Below, piece after piece: positions 4,350 to 37,549 of a DNA stretch of 41,818 nucleotides. This DNA is from Verrucomicrobiota bacterium. GTDB taxonomy: Bacteria; Verrucomicrobiota; Verrucomicrobiia; Limisphaerales; JACQFS01. Each line of letters begins with the position of its first letter. Positions within the stretch are counted from its first letter, which is position 1. A program made the translations under genes and the position numbers. The notes under the pieces are model-generated. The model worked only from the letters and a program-made list of their open reading frames with translations. It did no database searches and had not been told where the DNA came from. Location: positions 1 through 41,818 of the forward strand of contig JACQFS010000101.1 of the NCBI GenBank assembly GCA_016199935.1, in the 5' to 3' direction.

Positions 4350-4471
4350 AAGCTCCAAATTCCAAGCACCAAGCTCCAGAGAAGTTCCAAGCTCCAAGCG
4401 AGATGACGCTTGGAGTTTTTGTTTTTGGTTTTGAGATTTCCCTGGAGCTTGGTGCTTGGAATTTGGAGCTT
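4350..4471. repeat. Long inverted repeat made of CCAAGC-type heptads
   Basis: Arms 4350-4379 and 4442-4471 are exact complements over 30 bp. Each arm is built from units such as GCTCCAA, ATTCCAA and GCACCAA, and further copies (TTCCAAG, CTCCAAG) lie inside. The inner part forms the terminator hairpin at 4392-4415. The last base of the right arm is the T of the TA target site of the adjacent island. Confidence 0.85.
4392..4426 (+). terminator. Intrinsic terminator of the membrane TPR gene
   Basis: A 9-bp stem CTCCAAGCG/CGCTTGGAG (4392-4400 with 4407-4415) with a 6-nt loop is followed by TTTTTGTTTTT. This is a textbook intrinsic terminator for the gene ending at 4348, and it appears to have been built from the local heptad repeat. 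Confidence 0.7.
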
Positions 4472-10227: not shown

Positions 10228-10340
10228 CGGAGCGCGGACGGTCCCCGTCCGCAGCGGCTTCGCACTGAATGGCGCGTCCGAATCATTCCAACGTCCGTTC
10301 GCGTCCGTGGCCGCTGCGGGCCGGGACGGCCCGCGCTCCG
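10228..10340. repeat. Double-hairpin inverted repeat (family copy A)
   Basis: Arms 10228-10257 and 10311-10340 are inverted copies matching at 26 of 30 positions. Each arm is itself a hairpin (GCGGACGG/CCGTCCGC on the left, GCGGGCC/GGCCCGC on the right). The four mismatches between arms fall in the inner stems and keep each stem paired. Outer flank reads GGAGCGCGG. It fills most of the gap before nadE. Confidence 0.8.
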
Positions 10341-20044: not shown

Positions 20045-20103
20045 GTAACGAGTAAGGAGTAATCCGTAAGCAGTCAGTTACGGATCTCTCCTTGCTCGTT
20101 GCT
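20045..20103. repeat. Inverted heptad repeat (ACGAGTA-type), copy 1
   Basis: Arms about 20045-20070 and 20077-20103 are imperfect inverted copies. Each has 7-nt units ending in GTA: ACGAGTA, AGGAGTA, ATCCGTA. The same family occurs at 22993-23050 on the other side of the intervening gene. Confidence 0.7.
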
Positions 20104-22992: not shown

Positions 22993-23050
22993 GTTACGGA
23001 TTACTGCTTACTCGTTACGGCGCGTGACGAGTAAGTAGTAATCCGTAAAC
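22993..23050. repeat. Inverted heptad repeat (ACGAGTA-type), copy 2
   Basis: Arms 22993-23018 and 23024-23050, imperfect inverted copies with the same units as the 20045-20103 repeat (TTACGGATTACT, ACTCGTTAC and complements). It ends just downstream of the RNA methyltransferase gene. Confidence 0.75.
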
Positions 23051-24234: not shown

Positions 24235-24305
24235 GGAGCGGCGACATTCTTGTCGCCTCGTCATTCAATTATGAAAACAAACGGCGACAAGAGTGTCGCC
24301 GCTCC
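24235..24305. repeat. Double-hairpin inverted repeat (copy E)
   Basis: Arms 24235-24257 and 24283-24305 are inverted copies matching 22 of 23. Each arm holds an inner 6-bp stem GGCGAC/GTCGCC. Outer flank reads GGAGC, like copies A and C. Confidence 0.75.
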
Positions 24306-25381: not shown

Positions 25382-25410
25382 ATGGAAATCCATTCGCAAG
25401 GAGGCCGCAA
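25382..25410 (-). promoter_or_regulatory. Candidate promoter of the DUF3500 gene
   Basis: On the minus strand TTGCGG (25410-25405), 17 nt, TTCCAT (25387-25382), 6 nt before the ATG. The -35 box is the foot of the hairpin at 25407-25422. Confidence 0.3.
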
Positions 25411-25542
25411 GCTTTAGCTTGCGCTCCATCTCCCGCGTAGCGCAGGCATCCTGCCTGCGGGTTCACGAAACATCTTGTTTCGTGTCTCTCGGACCGGGGA
25501 GCAGGATGCTCCCCAAACCCGCAAGCAGGATGCTTGCGCTAC
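25407..25542. repeat. Array of hairpins including double-hairpin repeat copy B
   Basis: Five hairpins follow one another: 25407-25422 (GCAAGC/GCTTGC), 25442-25458 (GCAGGC/GCCTGC), 25464-25484 (CACGAAA/TTTCGTG), 25496-25514 (GGGGAGC/GCTCCCC) and 25521-25537 (GCAAGC/GCTTGC). Arms 25437-25461 and 25518-25542 are inverted copies matching 23 of 25. The two differences are the paired G-C/A-T change in the inner stem. Confidence 0.85.
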
Positions 25543-26350: not shown

Positions 26351-26366
26351 TGAAGCGTTTTCTTTC

Positions 26367-26443
26367 AACGCAAAGACGCAAAGACGCAAAGGCGCAGGCC
26401 AAAGAATTCCTCCCGCGTCTTTGCGTCTTTGCGTCTTTGCGTT
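26367..26443. repeat. Inverted octamer repeat (ACGCAAAG-type)
   Basis: Arms 26367-26395 and 26415-26443 are inverted copies matching 28 of 29, each made of three 8-nt units ACGCAAAG. It occupies nearly the whole gap between the YmdB-type gene and xseA. Confidence 0.85.
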
Positions 26444-26451
26444 AAATCCCC

Positions 26452-36457: not shown

Positions 36458-36562
36458 GGAGCGCGGCCTTCAGGCCGCTTCACTGCCCGATTGTCATTGG
36501 ACTTGAGACTTCTGGTGTTTCCTCTGCCTACGCGTGTCGAAGCGGGCTGAAGCCCGCGCTCC
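36458..36562. repeat. Double-hairpin inverted repeat (copy C)
   Basis: Arms 36458-36482 and 36538-36562 match inversely at 22 of 25 positions. Inner stems are GCGGCC/GGCCGC on the left and GCGGGC/GCCCGC on the right; each is perfect although they differ from each other. Outer flank GGAGCGC is shared with copy A. Confidence 0.85.
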
Positions 36563-36620
36563 GTGAGTCGCACTCAGGCTTCCCTTTCTCCCCGGTCCTT
36601 CTATCCTCCGGCCCAATCCC

Positions 36621-37484
36621 ATGAGCGATGCCGCCAAAAATTCCGTGTGGCTGGAAAATTCCGCCGGCGAAAAATTTCCCATCGTCGGCAACTGCTCCAT
36701 CGGCCGCGCGCCCACCAACCAGATCGCGCTCGCCGACGATCGCGCCTCGCGCCGGCACGCGCTCGTCCACGCGCAGGAGCAGCATGAGTATTGGCTCGTG
36801 GACCTGGGCAGCAGCAACGGCACGCTCCTCAACGGCCGCCGCGTCAGCCAGCCCACGCTCCTCCACGACGGCGACCGCATCGAGGTTGGCGCCAGCGCGC
36901 TCAGCTTCCGGCAGTCCGCCGCCGCGGGCCGCTCGGCCAGCCGCAACCCCATCAGCGACGAGACCGTGCTCGACATCAAATCCGAACCCTGCTGGCTGCT
37001 CGTCGCCGACATCGAGGGCTCGACGCGGTTGCATGAAAAATTTCGCGCCGAGGAAATTCCGGTGCTCACCGGTCGCTGGCTCGCCGAGTGCAAACAGCTC
37101 GTCGAGGAATGTGGCGGCAGCATCAACAAATTCCTCGGCGACGGTTTCTTCGCCTACTGGCAGGCGCGCGAAGGCTCGGCGCTCCAGGTCACCCGCGCGA
37201 TCGAGGCGCTGAAGCGGTTGCAGGACGGCTCGAAGCTGCCGTTCCGTTTTGTGCTGCACCACGGCACCGTGTTTCGCGGCGGCGCGTCGCTGGGCGAGGA
37301 AAGTTTGTCCGGCCGCGAGGTGAATTTTATTTTCCGGATGGAAAAACTCGCCGGCTCCCTGCGCGAGCCGCGGCTCGTGAGCGAGATGGCCGCGAGCCTG
37401 CTCGAAACGCAGCTCCCCGCGAACGACGCCGGCCGCCACGCGCTGCCGAGCTTCGAGGGCGAGTTCGGGTTTGTAAAATTTTGA
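36621..37484 (+). CDS. FHA-domain class III adenylate/guanylate cyclase
   Basis: A 287-residue cytoplasmic protein. Residues about 8-95 form an FHA phosphothreonine-binding domain: G28-R29, S43-R-R-H46 and DLGSSNGTLLNGR. Residues about 122-285 form a class III nucleotide cyclase domain: metal ligand D130 in LLVADIEGSTRLHEKF and D174 in NKFLGDGFFAYW, 44 residues apart as usual. It presumably makes cAMP or cGMP in response to a phosphorylated partner. The Ser/Thr kinase immediately downstream is the obvious candidate, and the sigma factor upstream a candidate for co-regulation (inference). TATCCT at 36602-36607 may be a -10 box but no good -35 is visible. Confidence 0.88.
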   Translation: MSDAAKNSVWLENSAGEKFPIVGNCSIGRAPTNQIALADDRASRRHALVHAQEQHEYWLVDLGSSNGTLLNGRRVSQPTLLHDGDRIEVGASALSFRQSAAAGRSASRNPISDETVLDIKSEPCWLLVADIEGSTRLHEKFRAEEIPVLTGRWLAECKQLVEECGGSINKFLGDGFFAYWQAREGSALQVTRAIEALKRLQDGSKLPFRFVLHHGTVFRGGASLGEESLSGREVNFIFRMEKLAGSLREPRLVSEMAASLLETQLPANDAGRHALPSFEGEFGFVKF

Positions 37485-37491
37485 CAGCGCT

Positions 37492-37549
37492 CGGTGTCCA
37501 CCCTTCAGGGTGTCGGGCCGGACTCCGACACGCTAAAGCGTGAACACCG
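37492..37549. repeat. Double-hairpin inverted repeat (copy D)
   Basis: Arms 37492-37516 and 37525-37549 match inversely except in the inner hairpins and at one outer base. Inner stems are CACCCT/AGGGTG on the left and CACGCT/AGCGTG on the right. Outer flank is CGGTGT instead of GGAGC. Confidence 0.8.

Follow-up and report, generated by a model that had tools for sequence, protein, structure and literature searches.

The window, a stretch of 41,818 nucleotides that makes up contig C179 in a draft Verrucomicrobiota genome of 5.03 Mb, carries inverted pairs of small hairpins, and the question raised by this locus is which kind of element these pairs represent and what keeps their stems paired while the letters of the stems change. 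A preliminary description, made from the letters of the window, had reported nested inverted hairpins with coupled stem changes at four places (copies A to D). This anatomy was borne out at all four: each copy consists of an inverted hairpin pair, with stems that differ between the arms by coupled changes. A fifth inverted pair, absent from that description, was also observed. The features of the window are the following:

10229..10252, + strand: left REP arm of copy A, GGAGC.GCGGACGG[TCC]CCGTCCGC
10316..10339, - strand: right REP arm of copy A, GGAGC.GCGGGCCG[TCC]CGGCCCGC
24235..24305: fifth inverted REP pair, GGAGC.GGCGACA[TTCT]TGTCGCC (+ strand) and GGAG.CGGCGACA[CTCT]TGTCGCCG (- strand)
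25437..25459, + strand: left REP arm of copy B, GTAG.CGCAGGCA[TCC]TGCCTGCG
25464..25514: two extra hairpins in the spacer of copy B, CACGAAACA[TCT]TGTTTCGTG and GGGGAGCA[GGA]TGCTCCCC
25520..25542, - strand: right REP arm of copy B, GTAG.CGCAAGCA[TCC]TGCTTGCG
36458..36478, + strand: left REP arm of copy C, GGAGC.GCGGCC[TTCA]GGCCGC, with a GGAG tag
36482..36538, no strand: spacer of copy C, between the 24-nt arms
36542..36562, - strand: right REP arm of copy C, GGAGC.GCGGGC[TTCA]GCCCGC, with a GGAG tag
37492..37516, + strand: left arm of copy D, CGGTGTCCACCCTTCAGGGTGTCGG, with neither a GGAG nor a GTAG tag
37525..37549, - strand: right arm of copy D, CGGTGTTCACGCTTTAGCGTGTCGG

Between the two arms, two stem pairs differ in copy A (10228-10340), both of them coupled, and one coupled stem pair differs in copy B (25437-25542), while copy D (37492-37549) exhibits one coupled pair, one loop change, and one flank change. 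The arms of copy C are 24 nt long, 57 nt apart, and 92% complementary. Close to copy B, at 25400-25427, a lone hairpin, CGCAAGC[TTTA]GCTTGCG, has GGAG and CTCC at its two feet, i.e., it is a 'double foot' REP; a deletion within an inverted dimer has been suggested as a possible origin of such REPs (PMC6006769). A pair resembling the fifth pair of the window was observed elsewhere (L008 1935-1996).

The abundance of the arms was determined with genome-wide patterns in which the variable stem positions were left free, and reversed patterns served as controls. The genome contains 90 C-type arms (1 in the control), 156 A-type arms (0), 41 D-type arms (1), and 12 B-type arms (0), so that copies A to D are not due to chance, and the few further copies that would have spoken against a repeat family were not what the search returned. 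We extended it to 58 genomes, the genome under study included, each representing a separate family within the same order: C-type arms were present in 32 of them, with a maximum of 262 arms in one genome, and A-type arms in 15. The arms are thus short, many-copy palindromes of variable base composition, as expected of REPs. They also occur as two inverted REPs with preferred spacer lengths, as in REPINs; the spacers of C-type doublets measured 24, 48-52, or 56-61 nt, and the gaps of A-type doublets 54-58 nt. The gene between copies C and D has its nearest named homologue, with 78% identity, in a Pedosphaera sp. MAG (Verrucomicrobiota), whose FHA-domain gene aligns over window positions 36578-37482, stopping 16 bp short of copy C and 10 bp short of copy D. 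Neither movement of a doublet nor a clean empty site was observed, and the comparison is only suggestive because the sequence beside the FHA-domain gene does not align at all.

To avoid selecting perfect stems only, we sought the partners of known arms with the stem positions free, which located a partner for 79 of the 89 C-type arms and 84 of the 89 A-type arms. Among 38 distinct C-type doublets, 28 had unlike stems, as did 28 of the 35 A-type doublets. Where stem pairs differed, the change was mostly two-sided and paired (63 two-sided versus 28 one-sided for the C-type; 94 two-sided versus 18 others for the A-type), in counts that include a doublet twice, once from each end, when both of its arms match and that, because the copies are related, are not counts of independent changes. 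Covariation scores calculated on distinct arms reached 0.340 (C-type) and 0.330 (A-type); none of 500 shuffles scored as high, and slid controls reached at most 0.09. The statistical test proposed in the preliminary description was therefore positive, and stems that differ without kept pairing are not the prevailing pattern.

The distribution of the variants indicated what is kept. Five distinct perfect stem types were found in each of the C- and A-type families. All multi-copy stem variants were perfectly paired (4/4 and 5/5 in the C- and A-type families, respectively) and all imperfect variants were singletons (11/11 and 7/7), an association that was significant in both families (Fisher P 0.003 and 0.001). 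Pairing was intact in 97-98% of cells within local stems, versus 83-84% when the same positions were compared arm to arm. Copy C alone is predicted to form a large arm-to-arm fold, with internal mismatches. Since the coupled changes break the arm-to-arm fold, the kept unit is the single small hairpin and not the large fold. The suggestion that selection acts on a folded hairpin is supported by this local pairing and by the restriction of multi-copy variants to perfect stems. A preference for heterodimers, on the other hand, was not supported in either family (P 0.14 for the A-type, 0.33 for the C-type), with 9 same-stem doublets versus 10.5 expected in the C family and 6 versus 9.1 expected in the A family.

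A RAYT-type Y1 transposase, which the preliminary description had proposed to look for, was found both in the genome itself and in relatives. Contig C16 encodes a 241-amino-acid protein matching REP-associated tyrosine transposases, with a score of 79.4 bits against the NCBIfam model REP_Tyr_transpos, just below the cut-off of 80, and a score above the cut-off of the Pfam Y1_Tnp model; the C97 and L103 proteins exceeded the NCBIfam cut-off (92.9 and 84.9 bits, respectively). A REP-associated Y1 tyrosine transposase gene is therefore present, flanked by the same REPs in the case of B-like REPs (on C16) and, in relatives only, of C-type REPs. The C16 gene lies between GTAG.C-GCAG hairpins of the copy B kind, whose stems differ by coupled changes. 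The C97 gene (L117 1970-2800) lies between two inverted GTAG-GGACGA hairpin pairs, whose left and right stems again show coupled differences; at the edge of C172, a partial gene for the same RAYT likewise adjoins inverted GTAG-GGACGA hairpin pairs. C-type GGAG arms adjoin RAYTs in relatives of three families, namely L103 (G028), where they are present on both sides, L105 (G042), and L112 (G025), where the RAYT is a partial frame; GGAG hairpin pairs flank many more RAYTs of relatives. Overall, the density of tagged hairpins in RAYT flanks was twelve times that of the own-genome sample (1.9 versus 0.16 per kb). No directly flanking RAYT was found for A-type REPs, and no transposase was linked to copy D, which carries no GGAG or GTAG tag and otherwise has the anatomy of a REPIN. 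The RAYTs of interest were recovered by searching with the C16 and L103 proteins; the best Pfam Y1_Tnp matches in relatives were rejected, as these were mostly tyrosine transposases of about 150 amino acids with other flanking repeats.

The foot tags were compared with a tree of 35 RAYTs. One clade of 18 members (support 100/99) had GGAG tags in 13 cases and GTAG in none, and all eight members of its sister clade had GTAG or GTGG; two further GGAG-tagged cases fell outside the 18-member clade. The GGAG-tagged REPs that flank this clade in relatives include some of the C-type. No RAYT of the GGAG clade was found in the assembly under study (260 contigs, 97.7% complete), where the best match, at 46%, was the GTAG-type C16 gene. 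The enzyme for copies A and C is for this reason inferred from relatives.

Taken together, copies A, B, and C are very probably REPINs spread by a RAYT that uses folded, tagged hairpins, and copy D an untagged REP-like doublet of the same anatomy. The REP/RAYT lead of the preliminary description thus holds, with RAYT genes flanked by tagged REPs. According to this explanation, A, B, and C would be short non-autonomous elements of two inverted REP hairpins, each hairpin marked at its 5' foot by a tetranucleotide, which reads GTAG in B and GGAG in the other two. A RAYT (TnpA-REP), i.e., a transposase of the Y1/HuH kind, would bind each hairpin as folded single-stranded DNA, use the foot tag, and copy or move the doublet. 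An arm with a broken stem would not spread, and a stem changed on both sides would; because each hairpin would have to fold, the variants that remain in multiple copies would all be perfectly paired. The second side of a stem may change by two successive mutations or by one template switch in the hairpin. The single-stranded binding and cleavage, as well as the idea that complement swaps are tolerated and mismatches are not, are put forward by analogy with other published REP/RAYT pairs. The enzymes of E. coli, S. maltophilia, and Marinomonas bind and cut REPs as single-stranded DNA, and group 3 enzymes cleave far less, or hardly at all, when the stem contains a mismatch, whereas a complement swap has a moderate effect and is largely tolerated (PMC8266576).

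The nested layout had been taken not to be a standard annotated family. This was mistaken: inverted REP doublets were described in Pseudomonas fluorescens and named REPINs (PMC3116915), and head-head REP dimers have also been reported (PMC3733652). Like the copies of the window, REPINs consist of two inverted REPs with preferred spacer lengths, occur in many intergenic copies, show compensatory changes, and are tied to a RAYT; they differ in their tag, which is GT(A/G)G and not the GGAG of A and C, and in their compensation, which affects the hairpin between the two ends, whereas the coupling seen here lies inside the individual small REP stems. Palindromic repeats with a GTAG tag have been described from various prokaryotes, among them the verrucomicrobium Opitutus terrae (PMC3733652). 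They share stems of 5-13 bp, short loops, head-head dimers 20-100 bp apart, 'alternative complementary stem residues' in subfamilies, and heterodimers with unlike stems, and copy B fits them fully; their tag variants, however, are GYAG, GYRG, GTRG, GTMG, and GTGG, and do not include GGAG. Preserved palindromes 'suggesting selection for complementary mutations' were noted in 2010 (PMC2817692). Group 3 RAYT/TnpA-REP systems likewise combine HuH Y1 genes flanked by inverted REPs with perfect stems (PMC2817692, PMC8266576, PMC6006769), and mismatches harm cleavage by the enzymes tested (PMC8266576), but their tags are GT[AG]G (PMC2817692, PMC8266576, PMC6006769), in contrast to those of the GGAG clade found here in Verrucomicrobiota relatives. 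If REPs are strictly defined by a 5' GT(A/G)G foot tag, A and C, with GGAG, fall outside the definition, and B is the only one of the four copies to carry GTAG; A and C are for this reason better described as a variant of the REP/RAYT system that carries GGAG. Overall, the coupled stem changes are real, expected of REP/RAYT elements, and mostly known: publications from 2010-2013 already cover inverted doublets, dimers with mixed stems, and complementary changes in stems.

Coupled changes could also arise with no selection for folding, if a one-step template switch in the hairpin (quasipalindrome correction) used one stem side as the template for its partner. This is worth considering because C-G to G-C swaps, double transversions without a wobble intermediate, account for 59 of the 63 C-type coupled changes; at the most variable C-type pair, moreover, 21 of the 22 differing doublets differ on both sides. 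Many of the A-type changes, however, are A-T to G-C, and imperfect stems exist only as singletons. Broken arms thus arise but fail to multiply, so template correction alone is insufficient, and we regard it as an unlikely explanation of the pattern. Far less probable is a role of the hairpins in RNA, as transcript terminators or stabilisers whose stems are kept by selection on the RNA fold. Copies A, C, and D do sit directly 3' of a gene end, and copy C folds more stably than shuffled sequences do (z -4.35), but no Rfam family matched, and G-U was not enriched among the non-Watson-Crick cells (5 versus 9 and 3 versus 6), which weakly favours DNA over RNA; repeated doublets dispersed beside RAYTs would in any case require a mobile explanation. 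A copying mechanism that exchanges inner hairpins between elements in cassette fashion, raised earlier as an alternative, is equally improbable and found no support, since variants differ by single stem pairs and not by blocks, and since 13 of the 13 paired D-family copies share the same C/G arm combination, as expected of doublets spreading as units, despite left and right stem types that combine in several ways, near random, in the C and A families.

Beyond REPINs spread by a RAYT, which we retain as the explanation of A, B, and C, the GGAG tag deserves attention. About 250 GGAG-type arms are present in a genome whose assembly has no GGAG-clade RAYT; the arms of the A-type are often tagged GGAC or GGCG. 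As the start of a word, GGAG is absent from PMC3116915, PMC3733652, and PMC6006769, and a search for GGAG together with REPIN returned nothing relevant in a literature that covered few subscription papers, which is weak evidence of absence. With the same reserve, we found no record of a GGAG tag tracking one RAYT clade, nor of some 250 such arms without the corresponding RAYT. It is conceivable, albeit doubtful, that GGAG marks a separate, co-evolving REP/RAYT lineage of Verrucomicrobiota, whose REPs are near-identical across families and persist or multiply without a matching RAYT, either with another RAYT serving them in trans or by spreading between lineages.

The repeats of the window can be considered a natural experiment in substrate recognition by a RAYT. 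The rule that multi-copy variants are perfect and broken ones singletons, observed in two families, parallels, within a genome, the substrate rules that have been measured in vitro elsewhere, and the change from GTAG to GGAG, which tracks one RAYT clade, provides a handle for mapping the protein residues that read the tag.

Other repeats were observed in the window and in the remainder of the approximately 340 kb of the genome, window included, that was inspected as stretches. Inverted arrays of ACGCAAAG units, a separate repeat type, precede the exonuclease VII gene (26364-26446). An almost perfect inverted repeat, TTACGGATTACTGCTTACTCGTTACG, whose arms are 3 nt apart, is present at 22994-23048, with a shorter relative at 20062-20085, and a 41-nt inverted repeat, AAGCTCCAAATTCCAAGCACC..., 90% complementary and unrelated to the REPs, at 4350-4471. 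On L001 (1400-2160), a Y1 transposase of about 158 amino acids lies between short GC-stem hairpins (GCGCCGTAGGCGC, GCTCCGTAGGAGC), some of which precede GACATGTTTATAG; their stems vary in the same way as those of the REPs. Finally, pairs of CCCTCTCCC hairpins lying about 90 bp from each other (L005 14693-14801, L006 2237-2345, L016 5680-5787, and L022 4431-4549) represent another repeat type, found in several contigs of the own-genome sample.
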